Source: a virus. From it: 32,001 nucleotides of DNA. The position numbers and the translations under genes are program-made. Below are positions 1,385 to 30,886 of the stretch, in pieces (the stretch's first letter is position 1; each line of letters begins with the position of its first letter). The stretch covers positions 1 through 32,001 of the IMG/VR virus record IMGVR_UViG_3300043464_001836; one strand, written 5' to 3'. The notes beneath the pieces were generated by a model. That model worked only from the letters and a program-made list of their open reading frames with translations, was not told the DNA's origin and did not search any database.

Positions 1385-4300
1385 ATGAATAAAGAAGTGC
1401 TAATTACTGGTTCTAAAGGTGGAGAGCAGTCACACACTCCAGTTGAAACAGCTGATAACTTAAAATCTAGCGCATATGTAGAGTTTGTTGACCTAATCTG
1501 CGAGGGTGAGATTGAAGGTCTTGTTACTGGAGATGCTAAGTCCTTATACCTAAATGGTACTCCAGTACAAAACTCTGATGGTACATATAACTACCCAGAC
1601 TATACGTTTACTTTCTTAAAAGGTACACAGTATCAGGATCCTATACTTGGTTTTGATACTGTAGAGTCTGGAGTTTCTGGGCCTGGTGAGGTAAAGTACT
1701 CCCTCCCTAAGAGTGTTACTTTTAGTAATGCAAATGCAGACGCTGTACGCATAATTGTAGCTATACCAGCACTTGTAAGTTACGCTGATAATGGTGATAC
1801 TAATGGGTCAAGCTTAGTATATGAAGTACTACTAAGTGTTAATGGTGGTACGGCTACAAAGCTAATAGAAAAGACTGTAAGTGGTAAGACCACTTCTAGG
1901 TACCAATTAAGCCATAAGATTGATTTGAGCGCTTTTAGAACTAGTGAAAATGATAGCTTTACGCTAACTCTTAAGAAGACCTCAGTAGACTCTAGTAGCC
2001 TCAAAGTACAAAGTAGCTTATACTTTGACTCCTATACCCTTATATCTAACACGAAGCTACGGTACCCTAACTCAGTTATCTGTGCATCTAAGGTATCCTC
2101 TAGTCAGTTCTCAGCGGTACCTACACGTGGTTACTTCTTAAAGCTACTAAAAGTAAAGCTACCTACTGGGTATAACCCAGAGACTAGAAGCTACCCAACT
2201 ATTTGGGATGGAACACTAGATAACTACGCATGGACGGACAATCCTGTTTGGTGCTTCTATGACTTAATCACTAATGACCGCTACGGTCTAGGTGAGTATC
2301 TAGATGCTTCTCTAATAGATAAGTGGGCCTTATATAGTATCGCGCAATACTGTGATGAATTAGTTCCTGATGGTTTTGGTGGTACTGAACCTAGATTTAC
2401 CTTGAATGCGTACATACAGTCAAGAGAAGATGCTATTAAGTTAGTAACTGATTTAACCAGTACATTCAGAGCTATGGTATACTGGGGTGGTGGACTACTG
2501 ACAGCAGTTCAAGATTCTAGTACTAGTACTCCTCTAATGCAATTTACTAATAGTAATGTAGTTGGGGGTACTTTTAACTACTCTGGAGCTTCAAAGAAAG
2601 TAGTACATACTGCTGCACTTGTAACTTGGAATGACCCATCAGATCAGTATAAGCAGAAGGTAGAGTACGTTGAAGATAGAGAGTCAATTGCTAGATACGG
2701 TTATAATCCTACAGATGTAGTAGCTTTCGGGTGTACCTCTAGAGCACAAGCACATAGAGTAGGAAAGTGGCTACTATATACCGAAAGAGTAGAGTCCAGT
2801 GTTGTAGTATTCAGTGCAGGCCTAGAAGCCTCCTACCTTACCCCAGGCTCTATAGTTAAGGTATTCGATGAATCAAGAGCAGGTGTAGAGTTTGGTGGTA
2901 GAATACTTTCTAGTGCTATTAGTACACTTAACGTAACAGCTGTACTTGACAGACCTGTAGCCTTAACGTCGGGAACTCAGTACTATATTCGTGGTACAGT
3001 AATTTCTGATGGCACATTAAGCACTATAACTCAAGCTATCCCTACTAGTCAAAACGGACCTTCAGTATCTACTTTAGTACTCGATAAGAATAGTAATACT
3101 ATACTATTAGCACCAAATATGTCTTGGACTATTTATAGCGAAGGTACTATAGATGAAGAGCTTTATAGAGTCTTAAGTATTAGTGAGTCTGATAGTGTAG
3201 GTATTTATGAAATATCTGCAATCTACCATGACCCAAATAAGTTTGACTATATTGAGAATAACGTAGAATTAGAAGATAGAGTCTTCTCAACTATTAGTAC
3301 TATACCTGGAGCAGTAGATTATACAAAAGTAACTAGTTCTAGTGGCACATTTACTGACTCTACCGGTTCAGTAAGAACTAACTTAAATGTTGGTTTTGAA
3401 AGGGTAGAGTACGCCGCTAGTTATACAGTGGAACTTAAAGAAAGTTCAGGTAACTGGGTAATTGTAGCAGATAAAACTACAAGTACTAATATTACTTTAC
3501 AAGATATAGTACCTGATTCTAGCTACTCAGTTAGAATTACACCCTTCAATATTTTAGGAGAACCAGGTCCTGCGGTAACTAAGGAAACTATTGCTGTAAA
3601 TAGTACCTCTTCTGAAGTATATGCTTATCAGGTTCAAAACTTTTCCGCTACTTTACGTGCAACTGATATACTACTATCGTGGGATAGCTTTACTTCCGTA
3701 GGGTTTACTACAACTTATACTATTAAGCTAGGTAGTTCCTTTGATACTGCTACCGAAATAGTATCTGGATTAACCACTAACTCTTTTACTGTTAATCCTA
3801 ATACTCTAGGTGAGTATAAGTTCTGGATTGTTTATACCTTTAATATACTAGGTGATACATCCGCACCTATTAGTACTACTATCAACCTAGAGAAGCCTTT
3901 ACCACCTATTGATTTAAATACTGATGGTAAGGCATATTCTATCAGACTATCCTGGGATTATCAACAACAAAAAGTAGACCTAGATACAGTACAGGTATGG
4001 AGTTCTAGTACTCCAGATAGAGCTAACTCAGTATTACTTGTAGAGCTACCTTTTGGTACTCGTGTATACACTGTAACTGACCTAGATGCCGCTGAAGTAG
4101 TATACTTCTGGCTAAAAGTAGTTGATACAAGAGGAAATAGTTCCGACTTTTACCCGCTAAGTGCTACTAATGGAATTAGAGGTCAAGCTAACCTAGAGGT
4201 TTCTACATTACTAGGTATACTAGCAGATTCCATTACCTCTAGTGAACTAGCAGGCTCATTAAGCTCCAGAATAGATTTAATTGACGCTAGTAGTAGTGTA

Positions 4301-18087: not shown

Positions 18088-18318
18088 TTAGTAAATAAAT
18101 TCTCTATGCTTTAGAGTTTCTAGGTAGACTACATCCTCTTGATTAAGCCCTGGCTGCCTTAGCATTTCAGTAGGACTCATACACGTCTGCGTAACTTTTG
18201 GCACTGGTAAGATAAAGGTAACCTTGGCGCACCAGCAATTGTTACTACCAGTGCAGTATAGGGGTTTAGGCTTTACCTGGAGAGGCCGAAGCCTCTCCAA
18301 TGCTTGTGGGTTACACAT
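18088..18318 (-). CDS. Small Cys-rich protein, CWC-like
   Basis: A 76-aa protein with YCTGSNNCWCAKV, where three Cys lie in a C-x6-C-W-C pattern, followed ~20 residues later by TCMSPTEML. This recalls the cysteine-rich CWC family (C..N.CWC...LP...C), small proteins of unknown function, probably metal-binding. The N-terminal part LERLRPLQVKPKPL is basic. The start is in a TAATG overlap with the reductase stop, which suggests translational coupling to that gene. A redox or metal role next to a thiol-dependent reductase is possible but only inferred from position. Confidence 0.65.
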   Translation of the reverse strand: MCNPQALERLRPLQVKPKPLYCTGSNNCWCAKVTFILPVPKVTQTCMSPTEMLRQPGLNQEDVVYLETLKHREFIY

Positions 18319-20357
18319 TACCTAATTGGGCAAACTCCACCGGAGCAGCCCTCCTCTAATAGCTCCTCATGAGAGTTACTACTATCTAGGTTAATATCTA
18401 GTAGCTTAGCAGTATACTCTAGGTATTCAGCTTCGGTAACTACCTCTTGTGGTAGATATGGGTAACCAAGGTCCTTAGCAGTTTTAGATGGATCATTACG
18501 CTTTAGAAAGCTAACTGCTACATAAGAATCCCAGTTGCTGTATAACCAGTCAGTAATATCTTCTAGCTCATTCTCATCATAGCTAATAGTACAACTAACA
18601 TTCTGGTCGCAGTAGTTATCCATAAGCATCTTGTATCTATTTAGCTGGTCTACAGCAGACTCTAGGTTAACTTCCTTACCATCGACTACATCGAACTTTA
18701 CATCCTCATAGGATATTGGTAAAGTAACTAGCATCGCTGTAGTATCATAAGGATGTGCAAAGACTCTATAGTTAGCTTTACGTAGAATATCGATTAGTGG
18801 ATCATGAATACTAAAGGCTACGTTATTAAAGATATACTTTCCTAGAGGTTTGTGCATACCTTCAGTAGAGTCGTAACACTTACTCTGAGTACCTTCAGGT
18901 TTGATAGTAGAAATGTTCTTCGGATATGGCAGGTCTAGTTCCTCAGCCATACTATAAGCCGCGGATGTTTGGTGTCTACGTAGAGTACGGTATTCATACG
19001 CACCCATATCAGGACGTTTAGCAACACCCATTAAGCTAACACCACATAGTCTTAGGTGATCAGAATTAAGTGACCAGCTTTCTTGTAGAATACCGTCCCT
19101 AAAGTCAACACACGTTTGACGGTAATTTGCTCTAGAGATAATTCTAGCCGCGTCATGTAACTCGTGGTTACTACCTTTGAACTTTCCAAGGTCAATGGAG
19201 ACTAGGTTACAGGTTCCACCCTTACTAGGAAGTAGGATCTCTGCGCAAGGGTTCATCAGGGTTGCCCACGGGGCCCGGCGTTTAAGTTCTACACCGTTAA
19301 TCAGTCCAGGCTCACCCTTACCACCGCGGTGCATCATCCATAGTAGGCTAGATAATTCCTTCTTGGAAGGCTTAGAGTCAAATAGGATAGAGTTATTACT
19401 CTGCGTTCTATGCTCAAGACCAGTTTCGCTACCATCGTTGCTAAAGATATGTGACTTAGCTCTAGCAAATAGTTCCCACTCAGGACTAGAGTAATCCATA
19501 ATAGCTATCTGCGCAGACCTACGAGTAGATAGTACAGTTCCTAGAAGGTTTACTACGTCTAGAATATCAATAGATGATAGTAGGGAATCTGCTCGCTTAT
19601 TCATTATGTCTACAATTTTCTTGTAGGACTTCATAAGACCCGTAGACCCTTGACTTAGCCACCCATAGTTTCTAAGTCTTTTTCCACCACCACGAATCTC
19701 TGAGAAGTCAATAATAAGTTCCTTAGCGTTATACTTACCTGCTAGAATCTTGCCTACTGACTTTGCCCAGGCAATAGCGCTATCACCAACTCTGATATAC
19801 CAAATGCCATCTTCCATGTACTCTTCATTAAACTCAGTACCCTTCTCATCCGCTGTTCTAGTGGAAGGGATAAACGTTACCTTAGGAATAACTTTTCTAA
19901 AGCCGGTTAAGGTACCAGGTACTGGTCGAAAACCCATACCAGAGCCATTAAGAAGACCCCAGAATATATCTACTATGTCGTGCACGGTCTGGGCGTTTAT
20001 GGCAGCGCAGTTAAATTGACTCATAGCTATGGTCTTGGCAATATTAGTACCACCGAGCCATAAAGTACGTCCAGCTACAGCTACTTTCCTCTCTAGAAGA
20101 AGTTCACGTAACTGCGCTAGTTCCTCAAGCTGACTATCTACTAAGCATACCCATTCCTGCATATCCTCAGTAATATCATTTAGAGGCATATCAGGCCAGC
20201 TCTTCTGTGTTAGTGCGCGTTCCCAAAGCCATTTTTGATGAGCGATAACTCTATCTACAGTTTGCTCCCACGTCTCAAACTCTGTACCCGCCTCATTTAG
20301 GGGCCTGTTGTACGTTCTACGTGTAATAATTTGAGCTCTAGTGGAAGGAACGAACAT
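18318..20357 (-). CDS. nrdJ: Ribonucleotide reductase, class II, monomeric adenosylcobalamin-dependent
   Basis: A 679-aa enzyme of the RTPR type (Lactobacillus leichmannii enzyme, 739 aa), which reduces ribonucleoside triphosphates with a radical from coenzyme B12. Key residues are present: NPCAE with the thiyl Cys371 and Glu373, the active-site disulfide pair Cys117 (SQFNC) and Cys383 (GGTC), and a C-terminal CSGGVC (Cys671/Cys676) that shuttles electrons from thioredoxin. Other landmarks are GSGMGFRPVPG and STIKPEGTQSK. The gene is intact, with no insertion. It follows the dUTPase in a TAATG overlap. It would supply dNTPs without oxygen or a separate radical subunit but depends on host B12 (family knowledge). 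Confidence 0.93.
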   Translation of the reverse strand: MFVPSTRAQIITRRTYNRPLNEAGTEFETWEQTVDRVIAHQKWLWERALTQKSWPDMPLNDITEDMQEWVCLVDSQLEELAQLRELLLERKVAVAGRTLWLGGTNIAKTIAMSQFNCAAINAQTVHDIVDIFWGLLNGSGMGFRPVPGTLTGFRKVIPKVTFIPSTRTADEKGTEFNEEYMEDGIWYIRVGDSAIAWAKSVGKILAGKYNAKELIIDFSEIRGGGKRLRNYGWLSQGSTGLMKSYKKIVDIMNKRADSLLSSIDILDVVNLLGTVLSTRRSAQIAIMDYSSPEWELFARAKSHIFSNDGSETGLEHRTQSNNSILFDSKPSKKELSSLLWMMHRGGKGEPGLINGVELKRRAPWATLMNPCAEILLPSKGGTCNLVSIDLGKFKGSNHELHDAARIISRANYRQTCVDFRDGILQESWSLNSDHLRLCGVSLMGVAKRPDMGAYEYRTLRRHQTSAAYSMAEELDLPYPKNISTIKPEGTQSKCYDSTEGMHKPLGKYIFNNVAFSIHDPLIDILRKANYRVFAHPYDTTAMLVTLPISYEDVKFDVVDGKEVNLESAVDQLNRYKMLMDNYCDQNVSCTISYDENELEDITDWLYSNWDSYVAVSFLKRNDPSKTAKDLGYPYLPQEVVTEAEYLEYTAKLLDINLDSSNSHEELLEEGCSGGVCPIR

Positions 20358-21736
20358 TAATTAACCCCCGTACTACCAAACCCGCCCGTTCCACGGGCAC
20401 TATCTTCGAGTTCATCTACTAGAACTAAGTCAAAGTCTAGCTTTGGCATTAATACTAGTTGTACTAACCTATTTGGTAGTGTTAGTTCCATATCCTCATC
20501 TTTCCGTAAAGCAACCATAATTTCTCCTATGTAATTCTGATCAATAATTCCGATTGCATTAGCAAGACTATACCCACTTTTACTAATGCTACTTCTCCCT
20601 ACTAAGATAAAGTAGTACCCTGTAGGCGGTTTAACTTTTATACCTGTAGTGTATAAAGATACTGTTGATGTAAAGTCCTGAACTTTTTCTATAATGTGTA
20701 GGTCAATACCAGAAGCATTAATATCGTTAATGCTTGGAACCACTGCATTCTTGTTTGACTTAACTACATGTATTTCTCCTAGAGGATGTGGAATAATAGT
20801 ATCCTTATCTACACTAGGCTTCCAAGAGGAATAGGTACAGTATAAGTCATATTTACGATTCAGCCTAGGTATAAAGTTATTTTGGTATAGTTTATCTAAA
20901 AAGTGTATACTAGCTGCTCCACTACTAATTTCCCAGGAATGCTGATTATTTGTAGTATTAGTGTATACGTTACCAACACCTACTAGTGCCCGTATGCTTT
21001 CCAACATACCTATAGAATTTGAGCTAATATTTACTCTAGGTATAGGATGAAATACATTTCGTCTACTATTTAAACTACCATCTCCCTCATAGTACCCTCT
21101 TAGGAAAGCCCATTGTAGCTCCTCAGTAGCTAAATCGGGGAACTGTACCTTAGTATCTTTTTTTCCAGCTGCATCCAACTTTAGGTGCTTTACACATGCC
21201 CTAGACATTTGAGTAGAGTTAATGGTTAGCAATAGCATATTTGACTTAATTTCCGCAATAGGCAAATTAGTATCTACAATAGCTCTTAATTTTAAAAGTA
21301 TATCACAGTCATAATCCCTAACAGATATAGCTATGGAACCACTGTGCCTTATCGCACCATCACTAGCTATCCAACCTAACAGATACGCCTTTTCCGCGGT
21401 ATCTACATTATCCAATAGTGAATCATCAAAAAAGTACTTAGTATTAGGGTTAGACCTCCCAGAAAACTCCTCTGTTTTTTGGCAAAACATACAATAGTCT
21501 TTATTACCTATACGTCGTCTCTGCTTTACTACAAGTCTCCACTCTCTTTCAAATACACCTAAACAATTGGAGTTCTTACCACTATCACACTTTACTACCA
21601 CTACTTGGTGGCTTCCCTCTGATAAGTCTACCGGGGCCACATCATAGTACCCTTCTTTATTTGGTACATACTGAAGTTCTTTATACCTTTTATAGCTTTT
21701 AGTATCTTTAGAGGTTACTTTATCTGTTAGTATCAA
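20357..21736 (-). CDS. dut: LAGLIDADG homing endonuclease - dUTPase fusion
   Basis: A 459-aa single frame with two unrelated halves. Residues ~50-85 have Cys50/Cys58 and CMFC (82-85), a possible zinc ribbon. Two LAGLIDADG motifs follow at 118-127 (YLLGWIASDG) and 210-220 (AFLRGYYEGDG). From ~321 on there is a complete dUTPase with all five motifs: ASGIDL, GRSS, IGIIDQNYIGEI, RLVQLVL and RGTGGFGSTG. It converts dUTP to dUMP, keeping uracil out of DNA. There is no intein signature (no terminal HN plus C/S/T), so this is an N-terminal fusion. The start is TTG, overlapping the exonuclease stop. At the joint lies AGGAG (20776-20780), a possible leftover or working dUTPase ribosome site. Whether the enzyme is active as a fusion is unknown. 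Confidence 0.88.
   Translation of the reverse strand: MILTDKVTSKDTKSYKRYKELQYVPNKEGYYDVAPVDLSEGSHQVVVVKCDSGKNSNCLGVFEREWRLVVKQRRRIGNKDYCMFCQKTEEFSGRSNPNTKYFFDDSLLDNVDTAEKAYLLGWIASDGAIRHSGSIAISVRDYDCDILLKLRAIVDTNLPIAEIKSNMLLLTINSTQMSRACVKHLKLDAAGKKDTKVQFPDLATEELQWAFLRGYYEGDGSLNSRRNVFHPIPRVNISSNSIGMLESIRALVGVGNVYTNTTNNQHSWEISSGAASIHFLDKLYQNNFIPRLNRKYDLYCTYSSWKPSVDKDTIIPHPLGEIHVVKSNKNAVVPSINDINASGIDLHIIEKVQDFTSTVSLYTTGIKVKPPTGYYFILVGRSSISKSGYSLANAIGIIDQNYIGEIMVALRKDEDMELTLPNRLVQLVLMPKLDFDLVLVDELEDSARGTGGFGSTGVN
20776..20780 (-). promoter_or_regulatory. Shine-Dalgarno-like AGGAG at the endonuclease/dUTPase joint
   Basis: On the - strand the joint reads AGGAGAAATACATGTAGTT. The AGGAG is a consensus ribosome site inside the fused frame, exactly where a stand-alone dUTPase would begin. 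An ATG lies 6 nt after it but is out of frame and at once followed by TAG. In the dUTPase frame a GTA codon sits 8 nt after AGGAG. It looks like the relic of a separate dut start. Confidence 0.5.
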
Positions 21737-22581
21737 TTCAATCTCTCGTTTATGTCTTTTATGTTGTCTTCACCAATAGCTTCTCTACAGAAAGTAGCTA
21801 GGTCCATTAATTCTATGTTTCTATAAAGCAAGTCTTTTGCAGCATTAAGATTCTGGATAAACTTTTGTTTACCTGGTAGTGGTATAGCCTCGATTACTCC
21901 AAAGATATCACCATACTCTTCTAGTAGAGCTAGAGAGCGTTTAGGCCCTAGGCCTTCTGGCTTTGTAATATTATCTCCTGCATCACCACTTAGAACTTTT
22001 AGTCCTAGATAGTTATCATTAGTACACTCGTAAGGCCACGTATCTTCAGTAACTTCTTTTCTAGTTACATAACTAAAGCGAGAAACCTTATCAGATACTA
22101 GTAAATCCCAATCTTTATCGGTTGAAATAAGCCAAAGGTGTTTATAGCTTAAAGCACTTACTAAGTAGGCTCCAATGTCATCAGCCTCAACACCCTCATA
22201 GCGTAGCACAACGTATAGTTCTTCTAGTAAAACTAGAGTACGCTCAAACTCCTGAAAGAAGGCTTCGAATTTAGCTTTTTCTTCTGGAGTTTGTAGGGCT
22301 TGCTTCTCTTTACGGTTAGCCTTATACTCAGGATATAGGTTCTTTCTATAGCTAGAAGCTCCTTTATCGCAAGCAATAATAATCCTTCCTGCTTTGTAAC
22401 TCTGAGCTAGACTTTGTACAGTTTTAACATACTCATCTGCAAAGTCTAGCTGACCAGTAGTAAGAAAGCGAAAACCTAAATTGATCGCATCCACCACCAT
22501 TACAATCTCTGGGTCTTTAGAAGACATACTAGCAAAGGATTTACCTTTAGCAAGAGCTTTCAAATCGTCAATGTCTTCCAT
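21733..22581 (-). CDS. 5'-3' exonuclease / flap endonuclease (T5 D15-like)
   Basis: A 282-aa nuclease of the Pol I 5'-nuclease/FEN family that removes RNA primers and 5' flaps. Visible motifs are MVVDAINLGFRF (N-terminal metal Asp), YKANRKEK (arch region), the acidic GVEADDIGAYL, STDKDWDLL, and SGDAGDNITKPEGLGPKRS (helix-hairpin-helix entry). ATG 22581 is preferred over a GTG four codons earlier because it forms a TAATG overlap with the upstream nuclease gene and has GGAG upstream. Position beside D14-like and SbcC-like genes matches T5. The end overlaps the TTG start of the dUTPase fusion. Confidence 0.9.
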   Translation of the reverse strand: MEDIDDLKALAKGKSFASMSSKDPEIVMVVDAINLGFRFLTTGQLDFADEYVKTVQSLAQSYKAGRIIIACDKGASSYRKNLYPEYKANRKEKQALQTPEEKAKFEAFFQEFERTLVLLEELYVVLRYEGVEADDIGAYLVSALSYKHLWLISTDKDWDLLVSDKVSRFSYVTRKEVTEDTWPYECTNDNYLGLKVLSGDAGDNITKPEGLGPKRSLALLEEYGDIFGVIEAIPLPGKQKFIQNLNAAKDLLYRNIELMDLATFCREAIGEDNIKDINERLN

Positions 22582-23039
22582 TACTTGATCCACTCCGGTT
22601 TACAGTAGCTCACCCACTGTTCTAGTCTTGTAATATAGAATCCTTCATAGCTATACAAATAGCGGTGAGGGTACTCATCTGGTTCTACTAATAGGTTATC
22701 CATGCAAGCATATAGCTTAGACCTATCGTACTTATAAATAAGTAGTGGTTTCTTATTTACTTGTAAAGATTCTCTTACTGTCTGACCCCAAAATTGAGAA
22801 AGCTGCGGATTGACACCAGTTAAGTACGTAGATGATAACTGGTCTTCTGCGTAGTGCTTCACTTCTATACAGTAGTGGTTATACTCCCCTGGTACATATA
22901 AGTCACCCTTTAACTGGTGTACTGCCGCAAGTGCTCCAGATGCCGGAATGCGCTCCCACTGTAAGCCAGTTAGTTTACGCATTTCGTCTCGCACAACCGT
23001 CTCTGCTCTAGCGCCTTTTGCTCTGCTATCAACTGCCAT
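22581..23039 (-). CDS. PDDEXK nuclease, Holliday-junction-resolvase-like (T5 D14-like position)
   Basis: A 152-aa protein with the core of a restriction-like (PDDEXK) nuclease: RAKGARAETVVRDEM (helix with Glu), SGA, then KGDLYVPG (Asp) and CIEVKHY (E-x-K). This order is shared with archaeal Hjc-type resolvases and RecB-like nucleases. It would cut branched or recombination intermediates together with the neighbouring SbcCD-like and flap nucleases (inference). ATG 23039 is chosen over a TTG two codons upstream; the start lies within the 3' end of the SbcC-like gene. Confidence 0.8.
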   Translation of the reverse strand: MAVDSRAKGARAETVVRDEMRKLTGLQWERIPASGALAAVHQLKGDLYVPGEYNHYCIEVKHYAEDQLSSTYLTGVNPQLSQFWGQTVRESLQVNKKPLLIYKYDRSKLYACMDNLLVEPDEYPHRYLYSYEGFYITRLEQWVSYCKPEWIK

Positions 23040-24837
23040 AATCAATCCTACTTATACCATCTTCTTTTATAATTGTTAATTTCTTTACTAGTGGATGTGA
23101 ATACGAGTGTGAGATTAGAAAGGTATTTAAACAGTCTTCCCGTAGTAGCACTTCAATAAGCCGCTCCTTTCCGTCTAGGTCTAGGCTATCAATAACCTCA
23201 TCTAGGAAAAGTACATTAATACGATGCTTAGATAAAGTTGCCATAAGCCTACGAATTGCTAGAAGCGTACTAGTAGTAACTCTACATAGTTCACCTGCGG
23301 AAAGTGCAGTAATCTCAATATTCTTTCCATTGTCTACAATCACTACATTTAGCTTATCGTTGTGAAGCTCAAACAGCAATTCAAATCTACCGTCTGAAAG
23401 CTCCGCTAGATAAGTGTTAGTCAAACTTTCTAGTTCTCTAACAGAGTTCTCTATCTTATAAGCAATTAAGCCAGTAGTACTAAAGGCTTTCTTAAGAATT
23501 TCTAGTACAGATAAGTTGCTAGATACTTTAATTAAGTCAACTGAAATACTATCCAGCTGCTTAGTGTAGCTTTCTAACTGACCCCTAATTGCAGCAACTT
23601 CAGCATTATGAGAACTCTTAGCATTATTAGACTTGCTAACCTTCTCAATTCTAGCATTAACATCTTTTAGGTAAGCTGTCATGCTAGCAATGCTTTGTTC
23701 TAGTTCTTGTTTGTCTAATAGGATACCAGGAAGGGTATTGTCTACTAAGTTGCTAAACTGCTCAAATTCTGAAACTAGCTGTTGGTGAGCAGTTACTTCA
23801 GCATTAATCTTTTCAGCCTCTGTAATCTCCGCTAATACCTTAGCCTCTACTTTTCTTAAGTCTGCAATACTGGTTCTAGCTGTATTTAGAATTCCATTTA
23901 TACGCTGCACGTCAATTTCTTGTGCACAAGTAGGACAAGCTCCAGCAGTTAGTCCTTTATACTTGGTGATAATAGCACCTTGCTGACGTAGCTCTAGCTG
24001 TACTTCTGACTTTTTATTCTCTAGAGGTTTTAGATTTTGTTTCGGTTTTGTACTTACTAGAGCAGCGGGATTGATAGCAGCAAGACGTTCCTTGTAATGC
24101 TTGTTACTAGCAATCTTGCTATTGATCTTACTTATTTCTGCTAGTTGAGCTTTATGCTCTGCTAATTGGGTCGCTTTTGTACTATCTAGCATAGGAAGGG
24201 GCTCTAGCTCTAACTCTACTAGGGACTTCTTAGCTGCTTCCTCTAACCAGGACCTAACAGTAGATTCCTTAGCCTGTAGTTTAATCAGAGACTCGTTTAC
24301 TTCCTTGTACGCTTGCTTAACCCTCTCAAAAATAGTTAAGTACCTATCTAGAGATAGTAAGTCAATAAGGAACTTCTTTCGGTTAGAGTCAGTAGCCGTA
24401 AGGAACTGTAGAGAAGAAGTGCTATTCTGATAAATTAGCTGACTAAACGTTTTGGGGTCTATACCAAATAAATCCTCAACTTGAGAAAAGGTGGCTGTAG
24501 CCGTATGACTAGACACGTCCAACCCATTTTCTAGTAGTTTAACCTTCTGGGTGGCGCCGGAGCGAGTTACACTAAGTGTAAACGCTCTATCATCTATAAC
24601 GAAGTTACAGGAGGCAGAATACTTATTACTACCTAGCTCTCGGTTAAATACGTCACCTTTCTTAATCGCTTTTGAGTTGCGATTAAATAGTACCTCTTCT
24701 AGAACTAGGGGTATTGAAGACTTGCCAGAACCATTCACGCCTACTAGCTGTACGATTGGTTCCTCGTCTAAAGCTACACTATTATCTAGTCCATAACTAA
24801 ATAACCCGCTCCAGTTAAGCGTCTTTAATGTAATCAT
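23029..24837 (-). CDS. sbcC: SbcC/Rad50-like ATPase subunit (T4 gp46 / T5 D13-like)
   Basis: A 602-aa SMC-like ATPase that partners the adjacent SbcD-like nuclease for end resection and hairpin or branch processing. Walker A is GVNGSGKSS (33-41). A long coiled coil follows, broken in the middle by the zinc hook ACPTCAQE (CPTC). After a second coiled-coil arm come the ABC signature ALSAGELCRVTTS and Walker B INVLFLDEVID. The length matches short phage versions rather than the ~1,050 aa bacterial SbcC. AAGGA precedes ATG 24837, which lies 23 bp inside the SbcD-like gene. Confidence 0.93.
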   Translation of the reverse strand: MITLKTLNWSGLFSYGLDNSVALDEEPIVQLVGVNGSGKSSIPLVLEEVLFNRNSKAIKKGDVFNRELGSNKYSASCNFVIDDRAFTLSVTRSGATQKVKLLENGLDVSSHTATATFSQVEDLFGIDPKTFSQLIYQNSTSSLQFLTATDSNRKKFLIDLLSLDRYLTIFERVKQAYKEVNESLIKLQAKESTVRSWLEEAAKKSLVELELEPLPMLDSTKATQLAEHKAQLAEISKINSKIASNKHYKERLAAINPAALVSTKPKQNLKPLENKKSEVQLELRQQGAIITKYKGLTAGACPTCAQEIDVQRINGILNTARTSIADLRKVEAKVLAEITEAEKINAEVTAHQQLVSEFEQFSNLVDNTLPGILLDKQELEQSIASMTAYLKDVNARIEKVSKSNNAKSSHNAEVAAIRGQLESYTKQLDSISVDLIKVSSNLSVLEILKKAFSTTGLIAYKIENSVRELESLTNTYLAELSDGRFELLFELHNDKLNVVIVDNGKNIEITALSAGELCRVTTSTLLAIRRLMATLSKHRINVLFLDEVIDSLDLDGKERLIEVLLREDCLNTFLISHSYSHPLVKKLTIIKEDGISRIDYGS

Positions 24838-25750
24838 CTGCTTCCTTTAATACCTTATCTACGTTAGGAACCTTCAACACGTTCTCTAAGTAAATCCTTA
24901 GCTCCTCCTGTACAGGTAGGTTTCTCAAGTCTAGACTGGCTTTATGCTCACGTAGAACTAACTTCTTGTCTAGAAGTTCTGTGTTCTTAACCGTAGCTAA
25001 TTGTCCTACGTCACCCTCCACTTCAAATATTGTGTGATGGTAGCTAGTTGGAACCATTTCGGCTGCAGAGCCGACGGTTTTTCTGATTAGCTGTGGTAGG
25101 TCCAGTTCGTAGAAGTCCCATTCTAGTAAATCAGAATCTAGAATAACTACACCACTAGTAACTTCACTTCTGTGAAAGCTAGTAGTTACTGGAGACCCTG
25201 GGTACACAATATTACGCTGGCTATTACTATGAGAGTGTAAGTCCCCTGCTAGTACTAGAGGCCATCGGTCTAGTAAACTCAGGTCAATCTCTGGCTTTAC
25301 ATGTGGAGGAATCTCTCCACGCACGTGAGTAAATAAAATATTCCCCGTAAACTCTGGCCAGGACTCTCGAAGTTTATTATACGGAATAAAGTCCATATTA
25401 TCAATAGTCAGGAAGTCATCAATAATCCTAATATTACCGTTACTAGCAGATAACGTTACTAGTGATAAGTTACTTAGGAATGTTGTATTTTTCTTAACAG
25501 CTTCGTGGTTACCGGGGTAAATAATAGTACGAATATCTTTGAAAATCTCAAGCATTTCAAAGTATAGGCCTAGCTCAACCATAGAAGGTACTTTATCAAA
25601 TACGTCACCACCTAATACTAGAAGGTCACAGTTCTGCATCAAGTCTTTTATACTATGAAAAAGGCTTCTATACCTATTTAGTTGCCACTCTACAGGTACA
25701 TTCTTCTGGCCTAGCTTTATATGTAAGTCAGCTGTAAATAGTACTTTCAT
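24815..25750 (-). CDS. sbcD: SbcD/Mre11-like nuclease subunit (T4 gp47 / T5 D12-like)
   Basis: A 311-aa metallophosphoesterase with the full ligand set: LFTADLHIK (DxH), VLGGDVFDK (GD), IYPGNHEA (GNHE), LFTHVRGE (H) and LAGDLHSHS (GDxHxH). It is the nuclease of the SbcCD/Mre11-Rad50-like complex formed with the following gene. Its ATG overlaps the stop of the homing endonuclease gene in ATGA. The same nine bases at that joint recur at the other end of the endonuclease gene, so this gene was probably once coupled straight to the 63-aa gene upstream. Confidence 0.93.
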   Translation of the reverse strand: MKVLFTADLHIKLGQKNVPVEWQLNRYRSLFHSIKDLMQNCDLLVLGGDVFDKVPSMVELGLYFEMLEIFKDIRTIIYPGNHEAVKKNTTFLSNLSLVTLSASNGNIRIIDDFLTIDNMDFIPYNKLRESWPEFTGNILFTHVRGEIPPHVKPEIDLSLLDRWPLVLAGDLHSHSNSQRNIVYPGSPVTTSFHRSEVTSGVVILDSDLLEWDFYELDLPQLIRKTVGSAAEMVPTSYHHTIFEVEGDVGQLATVKNTELLDKKLVLREHKASLDLRNLPVQEELRIYLENVLKVPNVDKVLKEADDYIKDA

Positions 25751-25755
25751 TTGTT
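25747..25755 (-). repeat. 9-bp direct repeat at the SbcD-side joint of the homing endonuclease gene
   Basis: On the - strand AACAAATGA forms the endonuclease stop (TGA) and the SbcD-like start (ATG). The same nine bases occur at 27147-27155, exactly 1,400 bp away, at the other end of the endonuclease gene. Confidence 0.85.
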
Positions 25756-27150
25756 ATCCTCTAAAACCCAGGCGGAGTTACCACAGTCAAAAACTCTATG
25801 ATATCCTCTATGTTGCATAATTTCGACCTCAGTACTATTAATATCGTAACCTTGTTGTACTAACAGATGCTTCTGACATTGGTGTCTAGAGAGGGAGTCT
25901 AATCCTTTATAGTACCTATAACTAGGGTCTGTAAAATGACTAAATCTAAAGCCTAGTTTCATATATAAGTTACCTGTGCTCCACCTACGATCTGCATAGC
26001 TAATAATAGTTCCTATATTACTTTTAGTAAAAGCTCTAAGTAATTTAGATGCCCCACCAATAACAGTACTGCCCAATATACTACAATAGCGTAATAGTTC
26101 ATAATTATAGACACTATTAAATCGTGGCGTACCGAACGTCATAATAGCAACTAAGCGACTATCCAAGTACAACCCGTACCGATACTTAGACACGCACGTT
26201 CCCTGAATATGATTAGCTACTAGAAATAATGAGGCGTCATCTGGACTTACTTGTCTAATTACGCATTTTCTAGCAGCTATCTTTACTGAAGTACCTACTA
26301 AAGACTCTAGCCTAGACTTTACAATATGTTGCTTATGTATCCACTCATCCTCATTTATATGAATTAACCTATATCCAAAATTTTCCACTCCTATAGTTTT
26401 ATTTAGGTGGTAATTTCTACCTACTAGAGCCTCCCGATGCCAATAGGTTCCGTTAAACTCAATAGCTATACCTAAGTCTGGCAATAAAATATCCAGCTCT
26501 TTACCACCTAGAATAGACCTATCATTTAATTCTACCCAGCCAGGATATACTGATTGAATAAACTTTGTTAGCTCTTCTTCACTATTACTACGTAGCTTAT
26601 TCTTTGCACATACGGGGCAGCCAGATAGATTACCAATCGTATTATTAGGTGTAGCTTCCCACAGATTACCACAAACAGTACACTTATGTACTAAAGGTAA
26701 CTGTCTACCTTTATATTCCCCTATAACCTCAATATTTCTATCTCCTAGTTCCATTATATATTCAGCTGTAGTTTTCAAAGCTCTATTAGAGCAAAATTTA
26801 CATTTATGGCCTTGAATAACACTCTGAGGTCTTACTTCATGTGTACTGCCACAGTCTAGGCACTCATGTAGTATATTGGTTAGGTTATTTATGTATGTAC
26901 CTACACGTCTATATCTAGTCTGTTTTATCTTCTCATCGTATATTTCATTAGTCCACGTAGCTTTTTTGGCTCTACAGGTAGGACAGGTAGTAGATTTTAA
27001 TACTGTTTTGGGGGCTCTTAAGTATATATTACCACAACCTAAGCATTCATGCTCTATTGGGATTAGTGCAGTTTTATACTCTCCTATACGACGATAAGTG
27101 CTACCCTTAGCCAGTAGCTTCTTATCGTACTCTGCATTACTTGAAGTCAT
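25747..27150 (-). CDS. Free-standing EDxHD (Vsr-like) homing endonuclease with three zinc ribbons
   Basis: A 467-aa protein. Three CxxC...CxxC zinc ribbons open it: Cys36/39-56/59, 97/100-117/120 and 157/160-178/181. The catalytic region is of the Vsr-like EDxHD type known from I-Bth0305I: KELDILLPD (Asp220), AIEFNGTYWHRE (Glu231, His238) and LIHINEDEW. The C-terminal ~170 residues (GLYLDSRLVAIMTFG, ISYADRRWSTGNLY) match a module often seen in phage homing endonucleases. It would cut an endonuclease-free allele and spread by repair. It sits between the 63-aa gene and the SbcD-like gene, flanked by a 9-bp direct repeat, without disturbing either frame. Confidence 0.85.
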   Translation of the reverse strand: MTSSNAEYDKKLLAKGSTYRRIGEYKTALIPIEHECLGCGNIYLRAPKTVLKSTTCPTCRAKKATWTNEIYDEKIKQTRYRRVGTYINNLTNILHECLDCGSTHEVRPQSVIQGHKCKFCSNRALKTTAEYIMELGDRNIEVIGEYKGRQLPLVHKCTVCGNLWEATPNNTIGNLSGCPVCAKNKLRSNSEEELTKFIQSVYPGWVELNDRSILGGKELDILLPDLGIAIEFNGTYWHREALVGRNYHLNKTIGVENFGYRLIHINEDEWIHKQHIVKSRLESLVGTSVKIAARKCVIRQVSPDDASLFLVANHIQGTCVSKYRYGLYLDSRLVAIMTFGTPRFNSVYNYELLRYCSILGSTVIGGASKLLRAFTKSNIGTIISYADRRWSTGNLYMKLGFRFSHFTDPSYRYYKGLDSLSRHQCQKHLLVQQGYDINSTEVEIMQHRGYHRVFDCGNSAWVLEDNK

Positions 27151-28436: not shown

Positions 28437-30833
28437 TTATTTTTTCAAAACCCTTACCTGATAACCGGACTTTAAGTAATGGCCTAGTCTAACAGCAGAC
28501 TGACCCTTAACTGTAGAGCCTTTCAATGAGATATCTAGGATAAGTGGTTGCTTTTTACCGGGTACTTCTCTAATAATTCGTCCAATCAGCTGTGTTAGCA
28601 TAGGCTCATTATTAGTGGGCGTTGCTAGAATTAGACAGCTTAAATCATTTTGAGAAATTCCTTCTGAGAAGATAGACATAGTACCAAAAATAACGTCTAG
28701 CTCTCCTGTACCAATCTTGTTCAGGATACTAGTTCTTTCCTTAATGTCCTTTACTTGACCAGTAATACTAGCTGCTCTAGGTACTTGTTCGGCCGCCCAT
28801 ACTAGAAATTCAACTCTAGAGGCAACTACTAGTACTTTATACCCTTTTGACGCCGCACTAGTGGCTAAGTCTACTATTAATCGCCTATATTCTGGTAGTT
28901 CGTTTTCTAGTTCAGTAATCTTATTAGCCCAATGTTTACCGCCCGGAAAGCGTATATCTGTCTCCACAACAACTACCTGTGGAGTCATACAGTTTTCCTT
29001 GTCTGGCTTTAGAACATGGAATCCAAAGTAGTCATTAAATAGCACATGCTTCATGTCCTTTCTAGTAAGAGTACCAGAGAGTCCAATCTTATAGCGTGCT
29101 TTAGACTTATCTAAGATAGAACTGAATGTGGAAGCAGAGACGTGGTGACAGTTTGATACTAGTACCCCGTTGGCAAAGTATGTATGAGTATCCTCTACCT
29201 CTATATTGAACCTATTGCCGTACATTAAAGTACTAGGCTCAATTGATATAATAGGTCTAGTATAGTAAGGTTTTATATGTTCCTTTATAAGGTCGAAGTG
29301 TTCCTCGAATGGTACATCTGCTAGCATCGGTAGTAAACTACCTAGCTTATACCGCATACAGGGATGTATATACTTAGCTATACTATGTAAAAACTTTCTA
29401 GAGTTATTTGCGTTTAGGTTCAGATAATTAAACCCTCTATTACACGTATATATATAGTACTCGTCTACAAGGTTTAAGTTAATTAAAGAATGTCCCAAGT
29501 TATGTATAGACTCCTCATCCAGTTCACAGAAGCTAAAGGTAACATTGCTTGTAGTACAAGATCCATCATCTTGAAAAATAAGAGACCAGGCTAGCACATC
29601 TAGTTTATTAGCTAGGTCTGCTGGAACTAGTTTTTTGTGTCCACTTACATATAGCTTATCATATAAGCTAAAGGAGTCCTCAAATGACTTAGTCTGTAAG
29701 CTGTATACCTTATTTTCTACTTTATATCCAGAGTGCCCCTCTACAAGAGTAACCTCATTAGAAATTATAGAGGTAATTAGTCTTTCTTTGTAAAGAAGAT
29801 AGTCTAGTTGCGCTTCACCATTAGTAAAGCGAAGGCGAACACTATTATTAGCTTTATTAGCTATAGATAGGTTACCGTCTCCCAGTAAAATACCTAGAAT
29901 TATGGGCAATGAAGACTCTTTTAATGCTAGCCTAGATTTATGCCTATTATTTGTTAGTATTAAATTATCTCCAACTGATAAGTCCTCTGCTTTTACTTTA
30001 CTTATTATTCCATCTTTGCTTTCTATAAAGAAAGAGTGATTATAGGTAGCTTTTATACTGCCTACACTGTGCTTTATTTTAAGACAAGACTCCTCCTTAT
30101 TCTTAAAGAATCTAAGTACTTTTTTATACACCTCTTGATTTGTTACTAAGTCGAAAGACCTTACATGTACAGGTAGTTCCTGGTTTACAATAGTACCTAT
30201 AGACATAGGTCCGTGCTCTAAGGTGTCCACTTGACTGGTGTAGTCTAAACACTCATCTAGTACAATAGTACCAAAAGCATCTGACAAGTCAGGCATACGC
30301 TTAGTAATCGTCTGTACATTACCTACAACGATTATAGGTCTTATATTAAACTTGCCAGTACCGATAATGCCCGCTTCAATACCAAAAATCTTGTCGATTT
30401 CTTCAATCCATTGGTCGCGCAGCATGGTAGTATGTGTTACGATAAGCGTCTTCTGTCCTAGCTTAGCAGCTATAGCTAGTGCTGTGAATGTCTTACCATA
30501 GCTTACAGGAGCATTGAGCATACATGAGTCATTTATCTGGTCGTATACTTCCTGCTGTGAAGGCCTTAATGTACCTCCAAACCTAGGAAACTGCACAGGC
30601 TTGAGAACTCGCTTATCAATAATCTCATAGTCGCTAGCTACTAAATCCATACGACCAGAAGGAATCGAGCATACGTTATCAGATACTCTAGAAAAGTTAT
30701 TAATAGTCTCAGACCGTGTGGTTACCCCTGTCTTCCTAGTTATAACGTACTTTAGCGCTCCCTTAATCTGGTCTAGTTCATCAGGTGTAGACTTCTCTAA
30801 GTATATTCTATTGCTTAGTACTGCCTTTCTCAT
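28437..30833 (-). CDS. Superfamily 2 DNA helicase (T5 D10 / UvsW-like) interrupted by an intein
   Basis: The frame from ATG 30833 encodes 798 aa, of which 367 are an intein, leaving a ~431-aa helicase. Helicase motifs are Walker A APVSYGKT, motif II LDE|CHH (split by the intein), motif III LSGTLTRKD, and motif VI QLIGRIIREVPGK. This type unwinds or branch-migrates recombination and replication intermediates. A GTG five codons upstream (30848) is possible, but ATG 30833 overlaps the stop of an 18-codon frame in ATGA. Without splicing, the ATPase motif II is broken, so activity depends on intein removal (inference from the position). The neighbour upstream in transcription order is the unknown gene behind the polymerase. 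Confidence 0.9.
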   Translation of the reverse strand: MRKAVLSNRIYLEKSTPDELDQIKGALKYVITRKTGVTTRSETINNFSRVSDNVCSIPSGRMDLVASDYEIIDKRVLKPVQFPRFGGTLRPSQQEVYDQINDSCMLNAPVSYGKTFTALAIAAKLGQKTLIVTHTTMLRDQWIEEIDKIFGIEAGIIGTGKFNIRPIIVVGNVQTITKRMPDLSDAFGTIVLDECLDYTSQVDTLEHGPMSIGTIVNQELPVHVRSFDLVTNQEVYKKVLRFFKNKEESCLKIKHSVGSIKATYNHSFFIESKDGIISKVKAEDLSVGDNLILTNNRHKSRLALKESSLPIILGILLGDGNLSIANKANNSVRLRFTNGEAQLDYLLYKERLITSIISNEVTLVEGHSGYKVENKVYSLQTKSFEDSFSLYDKLYVSGHKKLVPADLANKLDVLAWSLIFQDDGSCTTSNVTFSFCELDEESIHNLGHSLINLNLVDEYYIYTCNRGFNYLNLNANNSRKFLHSIAKYIHPCMRYKLGSLLPMLADVPFEEHFDLIKEHIKPYYTRPIISIEPSTLMYGNRFNIEVEDTHTYFANGVLVSNCHHVSASTFSSILDKSKARYKIGLSGTLTRKDMKHVLFNDYFGFHVLKPDKENCMTPQVVVVETDIRFPGGKHWANKITELENELPEYRRLIVDLATSAASKGYKVLVVASRVEFLVWAAEQVPRAASITGQVKDIKERTSILNKIGTGELDVIFGTMSIFSEGISQNDLSCLILATPTNNEPMLTQLIGRIIREVPGKKQPLILDISLKGSTVKGQSAVRLGHYLKSGYQVRVLKK
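29151..30251 (-). mobile_element. Intein with LAGLIDADG endonuclease in the helicase DExH motif
   Basis: A 367-aa intein from Cys1 (CLDYTSQVDT, just after ...IVLDE) to Asn367 (YFANGVLVSN), followed by the extein Cys of CHHV. Splicing restores IVLDECHHVS, a normal motif II. Block B-like TYNHSFFIES holds the usual T-x-x-H. Two LAGLIDADG motifs, LPIILGILLGDGN and LAWSLIFQDDGS, mark a homing endonuclease domain. The end is GVLVSN|C, so the penultimate residue is Ser rather than the usual His, although the preceding block F (FNIEVEDTHTYFANGVLV) is canonical. Such variants are known to splice in some inteins. Confidence 0.9.
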
Positions 30834-30886
30834 ATAAAGTATACCCACGTTGATGCTAGTACCAGAACAAATGCTATGACAACCAT
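30830..30886 (-). CDS. Tiny hydrophobic frame ahead of the helicase (candidate)
   Basis: An 18-codon frame, MVVIAFVLVLASTWVYFI, that is one hydrophobic helix and ends in an ATGA overlap with the helicase start. No ribosome site lies near its ATG; an AGGAG further upstream (after a stop in this frame) is ~24 nt away and spaced better for an ATA or ATT codon. It may be a small membrane peptide, a translational-coupling leader, or chance. Confidence 0.3.
   Translation of the reverse strand: MVVIAFVLVLASTWVYFI

Follow-up and report, generated by a model that had tools for sequence, protein, structure and literature searches.

The window, as we call the whole stretch of 32,001 nucleotides analysed here (positions 1 to 32,001 of the IMG/VR virus record IMGVR_UViG_3300043464_001836), comes from a 114-kb virus record with a T5-like gene order, and carries on its minus strand a single gene in which a LAGLIDADG homing endonuclease is fused in frame to the N-terminus of a complete dUTPase. 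The frame (20357-21736) runs from a TTG start to a TAA stop over 459 codons with zero internal stops, and would encode a protein of 51.4 kDa. Across the 319 N-terminal codons the two alternative frames hold 33 and 49 stops, so that the open frame is far from what chance would give. The gene and its parts are as follows.

20357..21736, minus strand: whole fusion gene (Cys-rich N-terminus, LAGLIDADG endonuclease and dUTPase), 459 amino acids; open reading frame, Pfam, PHROG, AlphaFold2
21452..21607, minus strand: Cys-rich region, residues 44-95 (C50, C58, C82, C85); weak Pfam match to DUF4379, E 0.27
20828..21427, minus strand: two-motif LAGLIDADG endonuclease domain, residues 104-303; Pfam PF14528, PHROG 4645
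21356..21382, minus strand: LAGLIDADG motif 1, LLGWIASDG, residues 119-127
21077..21106, minus strand: LAGLIDADG motif 2, FLRGYYEGDG, residues 211-220
20777..20827, minus strand: flexible tether, residues 304-320, without an in-frame start codon plus ribosome site; AlphaFold2 model, start-codon check
20366..20776, minus strand: dUTPase domain, residues 321-457, motifs 1-5 all present; Pfam, alignment
dUTPase motifs 1 and 2: ASGIDL (residues 341-346), GRSSISKSG (380-388)
dUTPase motifs 3 to 5: GIIDQNYIGEI (396-406), RLVQLVL (423-429), RGTGGFGSTG (448-457)

The endonuclease half matches PHROG 4645 at residues 95-302 (E 1.5e-22) and Pfam LAGLIDADG_3 at residues 208-253 (E 1.8e-7). As in LAGLIDADG homing endonucleases, there are two motifs in an alpha-beta core, each with a terminal acidic residue, and both predicted catalytic aspartates are retained (D126 in motif 1, D219 in motif 2). 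The dUTPase half matches PHROG 135 at residues 321-459 (E 1.4e-31) and Pfam PF00692 at residues 333-457 (E 2e-15), and has the five motifs, the catalytic Asp of motif 3 and the Gly-rich motif 5 that characterize the trimeric dUTPase superfamily; this half would probably work as a trimer. Met1 of related dUTPases aligns near fusion residues 319-322; these enzymes begin where the dUTPase half of the fusion begins, which places the N-terminal part outside the dUTPase fold. Residues 44-95 form a probable treble-clef zinc-finger-like region, for which a counterpart aligns in four related proteins (L133, L370, L371 and L137). An AlphaFold2 model built with 23 related sequences (mean pLDDT 85.5) shows a confidently folded Cys-rich region, a LAGLIDADG fold and a dUTPase fold, with a low-confidence tether at about residues 305-320, and with a pTM of 0.58 the placement of the domains relative to each other is uncertain. 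In Foldseek searches this model matched solved dUTPases (TMt up to 0.82), and an earlier model of the fusion matched dUTPases as well as the LAGLIDADG endonucleases I-SmaMI and I-Tsp061I. An earlier note, made from the letters of this DNA, had proposed a two-motif LAGLIDADG domain followed in one frame by all five dUTPase motifs. The 459-codon frame and the Pfam and PHROG matches bear this out, and the objection it foresaw, that the N-terminal domain might belong to the dUTPase fold, falls away with the alignment of related dUTPases.

Scans with alignments of the nuclease and of the dUTPase, in which all members found lie on metagenome viral contigs, indicate that the fusion of a LAGLIDADG endonuclease to a complete dUTPase is recurrent across viral contigs. 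Besides the window, intact fusions were found in L133, L134 and its twin L216, L135, L140, L142, L143, L370, L371, L374, L377, L378, L403 and L389. Together with the window this makes 15 contigs with 14 distinct proteins, all with both LAGLIDADG aspartates and complete dUTPase motifs; including decayed members, at least 17 other phage genes carry the join (13 intact and 4 decayed distinct proteins). An alignment of seven fusions shows D126 and D219 to be invariant, as are D345, R381, S382, D399, Y402, Q426 and R448 of the dUTPase, and both aspartates are also present in the remaining intact members. Scans that took one protein as the query (the fusion, its dUTPase or the flap endonuclease) returned no kin, whereas the alignment scans did. 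None of 50,697 phage records held the fusion, nor did any cover 80% of the window or L134 fusion, and among the best 80 of 176 relatives in GTDB genome contigs the matches lay in the nuclease half, none reaching into the dUTPase body. Between the window and L370, the dUTPase halves are 72% identical and the nuclease halves 56%. Fused and decayed dUTPases are compatible with one clade (approximately unbiased (AU) test, p 0.43), and the ordinary dut genes of the window's kin stand apart, as a clade of the fused enzymes with L051 is rejected (AU p 0.002). One member, L135, has a second dUTPase. In L140, an open reading frame directly upstream of the fusion (2396-2986) shows a weak, colinear likeness to a dUTPase that breaks off behind motif 4 (PHROG, E 0.0065; hhalign, 6% probability at E 0.006; no phage match). 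It is possibly a displaced resident enzyme, though we do not count this weakly supported case among the main evidence.

How should the joint between the two halves be read? That inteins commonly hold LAGLIDADG domains, and that the frame is open across both parts, would speak for a degenerate intein or an in-frame intron inside dut. However, the endonuclease stands before a complete dUTPase that it does not interrupt, and only about 17 residues separate the nuclease core from dUTPase strand 1. Pfam intein models gave no Hint or splicing match in the fusion protein, in line with the missing intein end signature in the earlier note, while the helicase of the same window scored with PF14890 (Intein_splicing; E 1.5e-8, 35.0 bits), just under the curated cut-off of 35.8. 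Likewise, an Rfam search of 20300-21900 found no intron RNA, either at the gathering cut-off or at E<=1, and a gathering search with the same library did find a group I intron in L054. We regard this explanation as extremely improbable. The identities of intein (no Hint domain at the flanks, a complete dUTPase downstream), of group I intron-encoded endonuclease (no ribozyme around the reading frame) and of free-standing homing endonuclease gene (nuclease in frame with dUTPase in 15 contigs) were all rejected. A second explanation is a sequencing or assembly error, in which a one-base deletion would have joined two separate genes. In its favor, a strong ribosome-site-like AGGAG and an ATG lie near the usual dUTPase start, as part of a start-stop element (AGGAG, six nucleotides, ATG-TAG) at 20763-20781, one base out of frame. 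Yet the joint is also open in the 14 other intact contigs, the AGGAG-ATG-TAG motif occurs at none of the seven joints tested, and GEIHVV, read in frame there, corresponds to strand 1 of the dUTPases of relatives. Moreover, GGAGAAAT recurs upstream of codon 407, at another GEI, through codon usage, and the element at the joint is probably a by-product of GEI codons. The deletion was dropped on the strength of the shared open joint and the fit of the in-frame residues; an error of this kind, which the earlier note had named as what could undo its reading, is to judge by these independent contigs refuted, and we give it hardly any weight. The earlier note also asked whether the two parts are made separately. 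In none of eight sequences (the window and seven other fusions) does an in-frame ATG, GTG or TTG with a recognizable ribosome site precede the dUTPase half, which makes separate translation unlikely, while separation by proteolysis is possible. We also dropped the idea that the endonuclease was inserted just behind an old dut start, suggested by the likeness of TTG-ATA-CTA to the TTG-TTA-CTA of the window's kin: the separate nucleases of L136/L137 begin with MILTD as well, and the TTG is therefore best taken as the nuclease's own start.

The surroundings of the gene offer a view on how it arrived, for which three further features are needed.

21733..22593, minus strand: flap endonuclease (T5 D15-like), left neighbour, overlapping the fusion start; conserved T5 order
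18318..20357, minus strand: ribonucleotide reductase, right neighbour; 1-base stop/start overlap, the same as with the dut of the window's kin
20357..20431, minus strand: 3' end of the dUTPase half, resembling the ordinary dut of the window's kin (putative crossover tract); 17-base identity at 20382-20398

In the dUTPase tree the fusions of the window and of L370, which is also T5-like, are sisters with a support of 100/96. In the flap-endonuclease tree, on the other hand, the window groups with L051-L055 (100/99), and a grouping with L370 is rejected (AU p 2e-5), from which it follows that the fusion has moved horizontally, a conclusion supported by sequence. In the same tree, L133 groups with L069, which has an ordinary dut. 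The window's dUTPase half itself is L370-like up to motif 5, from within which it is L051-like into the stop/start overlap with the ribonucleotide reductase. With L370 as the only fusion side and L051 as the only ordinary-dut side of the main test, 163 sites were informative; the window has the L370 state at 113 of the 138 sites that precede the break, and at 6 of the 25 that follow it (permutation p 0.0002). We take the switch within motif 5 to be a crossover of the incoming fusion with a resident dut of the L051 type, by which the resident gene was replaced. Beyond what the earlier note had seen, the fusion is, by its sequences, a recurrent and horizontally mobile gene family that in the window replaced the resident dut.

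The slot that it occupies is well defined. The window has the T5-like order of helicase, SSB, D12, D13, RusA-like/D14, flap endonuclease and dut, and in T5-like relatives dut directly follows the flap endonuclease. The closest relatives (L051-L057) have a dut without a LAGLIDADG domain, placed between the flap endonuclease and the ribonucleotide reductase; in L051-L054 and L056 an ordinary dut occupies the exact slot of the window's fusion. Where measured, identity between the window and this group is 66% for the D13-like protein, 65-69% for the flap endonuclease and 55-58% for the ribonucleotide reductase, and the scan with the latter retrieved relatives without synteny. The RusA-like/PDDEXK gene (22581-23045) is 88-90% identical to that of L051-L056, compared to 55-69% for its neighbours, and is either unusually conserved or recently exchanged. 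The gap between flap endonuclease and dut itself appears to be a recurrent insertion slot for endonucleases, with two GIY-YIG genes exactly there: one in L055 (4870-5526, by Pfam), and a similar gene in L082 (4819-5991), for which the GIY-YIG assignment was made by eye only. There are other mobile elements as well. The same T5-like operon of L370 holds a GIY-YIG gene (997-1698). Inserted in the window between SSB and the D12-like gene is an HNH/homing-endonuclease-like gene (25747-27150), with matches to PHROG 559 and 3339, to CapR and to Mom-like proteins; its stop overlaps the D12 start. The DNA helicase of the window (28437-30848, T5 D10 position) carries an intein with a LAGLIDADG_2 endonuclease. 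In L054 (6677-7836), and also in L057, about 1.16 kb interrupts the ribonucleotide reductase gene; in L054 a group I intron was found in this stretch (RF00028, 86.5 bits).

The endonuclease clade as a whole is associated with dut. The earlier note had suggested a search for phages with a split arrangement. In L137, L139 and L141 a sister nuclease occupies a separate frame beside dut. All of the nearest unfused nucleases (L136/L137, L138/L139, L141 and a fragment in L227) lie directly downstream of a dUTPase gene, and together with the fused nucleases these dut-adjacent ones form one clade (support 100/100). Other endonuclease loci from the same scans have flanks without a dUTPase match. In L139, a dUTPase C-terminal fragment (3693-3785) immediately follows the nuclease stop, behind a complete dut, and is possibly a relic of endonuclease insertion with replacement of the 3' end. 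In L227 (3998-5599), the dut-associated endonuclease fragment is followed by a TnpB-like reading frame that, by eye, seems to interrupt it.

Not all members have kept an intact nuclease. Six contigs with four proteins (L386, L387, L381/L382 and L383/L384) carry dUTPases of the same clade with a decayed N-terminal part in frame. By alignment, L387 has lost its second catalytic aspartate, and L386, L381 and apparently also L383 have lost both; the profile of the intact nuclease core still finds L387 (E 2e-18), L386 (E 9e-14) and L381 (E 2e-8), and weakly L383 (E 2e-4). In the dUTPase tree these decays represent four separate changes. Nevertheless, the 182-213 N-terminal codons of these members remain open, compared to 3-30 stops in the other frames, and such retention of the frame after loss of the nuclease is expected if the downstream dUTPase is needed. 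Among intact members, the ratio of nonsynonymous to synonymous substitution (dN/dS) for the pair L378/L403 is 0.23 in the LAGLIDADG part, 0.23 in the Cys-rich part and 0.05 in the dUTPase; for the window and L370, where synonymous sites are near saturation, the values are 0.27, 0.17 and 0.16. Both halves are under purifying selection, the dUTPase more strongly.

We consider it rather probable, on these comparisons, that a homing endonuclease gene has here acquired a dUTPase as its C-terminal part, and that it spreads by replacing alleles while its own chain supplies the rescue enzyme. The role of dUTPase is to prevent uracil from entering DNA. If the LAGLIDADG half is an active nuclease and dut its target, it would, in a mixed infection, cut the region of the ordinary dut in a second phage that lacks the fusion. 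During repair the fusion would be copied into that phage through two crossovers, one at the end towards the flap endonuclease and one among the conserved codons of dut motif 5. The recipient would lose its own dut, the job of which would pass to the dUTPase half of the fusion. Since the dUTPase follows the nuclease in one frame, any frameshift or stop codon in the nuclease part would also abolish the dUTPase, and the nuclease could be lost only through missense or in-frame changes. This coupling of frames may be the reason for the persistence of the fusion. The full proposal is a self-rescuing homing drive in which one polypeptide attacks and replaces the resident dut without splicing; it would have reached several phage groups, and in certain lineages the nuclease would later have decayed to leave a dUTPase with an inert N-terminal domain. 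We put this forward more tentatively, at somewhat less than even chances. Several observations weigh against homing by allele replacement. When the more distant L371 and L133 stand in for L370 as the fusion side, the breakpoint is significant against L051 (p 0.002 and 0.003), mixed against L054 (p 0.06 and 0.03) and absent against L053 (p 0.33 and 0.44). A single clade of fused nucleases is unrejected (AU p 0.13) though not clearly supported, so that more than one fusion event is possible, and to judge by the four members with decay, phages can often do without the nuclease. Furthermore, phages recombine in co-infection without any nuclease, and a crossover such as the putative one in motif 5 is no proof of homing.

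One could instead suppose that the fusion is domesticated: a LAGLIDADG half that no longer homes would bind DNA as a tether or regulator and so bring the dUTPase trimer to phage DNA or the replication machinery, its nuclease motifs being a relic or having a cellular role. The decayed yet open N-terminal domains of L386, L387, L381 and L383 fit this, as does the purifying selection on the nuclease half (dN/dS 0.23), and there is a parallel in the betaretroviral nucleocapsid-dUTPase (PMC4531489). However, both catalytic aspartates are kept in 14 of 14 distinct intact members, evolution is faster in the nuclease half than in the dUTPase, and homing predicts the horizontal movement and allele replacement that are observed; we find domestication unlikely. 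Somewhat less likely still is that the fusion hitch-hikes passively, as an old chance joining of a free-standing endonuclease gene to the next dut that ordinary phage recombination has spread as one dUTPase allele among many, with no replacement driven by a nuclease. Phages exchange genes by recombination anyway, the crossover falls in the most conserved motif of dut, where ordinary recombination would fall too, and essential phage genes often have free-standing endonucleases nearby (PMC10448857). What such hitch-hiking does not account for is that the endonuclease clade adjoins dut in every member seen, fused or unfused, as the other endonuclease loci of these scans do not, and that the active-site residues are intact over a wide range of phages.

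In the open-access papers that we searched, we found no earlier description of a LAGLIDADG-dUTPase fusion. Both halves are of known families. In the Allomyces atp6 case, a homing endonuclease is joined to its host gene without splicing. In fusions of this rps3/atp6 type, which are mitochondrial, function is restored by a foreign partial copy of the host gene, and the endonuclease lies 3' of or within the gene, bringing only a C-terminus. The window gene also joins a nuclease to an enzyme without splicing and carries a copy of that enzyme, which may be functional. It differs in that the nuclease precedes a complete dUTPase, and that the whole fused gene travels between phages in one piece. Unspliced endonuclease-host fusions are known from fungal mitochondrial rps3 (PMC5626475), and the ribosomal protein S3 case of Ophiostoma mitochondria, cited there, resembles the window's in that a homing endonuclease is joined to a host gene without splicing. 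Phage LAGLIDADG genes of PHROG 4645 (e.g. the 'mobile intron protein' of uncultured phage cr116_1) belong to the same two-motif family with about 26-31% identity, and also have a variable N-terminal part and adjacent essential genes. Those seen, however, are separate or intron-associated, whereas the window's nuclease runs in frame into a complete enzyme that replaces the resident gene. LAGLIDADG inteins likewise combine a nuclease and an essential enzyme in one translated frame, of which the loss is costly, but in the window the nuclease is terminal, there is no splicing domain and no excision takes place. The ShiLan element, an HNH endonuclease hidden in a phage methylase, is similarly a non-splicing insertion in a phage enzyme gene; its endonuclease is out of frame with the methylase (PMC11855218), that of the window in frame and N-terminal. 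Finally, the nucleocapsid-dUTPase of betaretroviruses (MPMV, MMTV) puts a nucleic-acid-binding domain before a trimeric dUTPase, which shows that the trimer tolerates such an N-terminal domain (PMC4531489). The MPMV protein is reported to form a homotrimer of low catalytic efficiency (refs 47-48 in that paper). Unlike the window's fusion, the betaretroviral protein is a trans-frame gag/pro product without nuclease and without homing.

How do endonuclease genes that have neither intron nor intein survive in dense phage operons? The fusion family suggests a third solution, in which the endonuclease takes over the job of the displaced gene within the same polypeptide, resembling engineered cleave-and-rescue drives. 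Such a drive predicts that ordinary dut is cleaved, that the fusion is inherited above half, and that a frameshift abolishes both functions. It also poses the structural question of three meganucleases carried on one dUTPase trimer, which would bear on the earlier note's question about trimerization. If it holds, it would tie the homing of endonucleases to the way in which phages turn over their nucleotide-metabolism genes.

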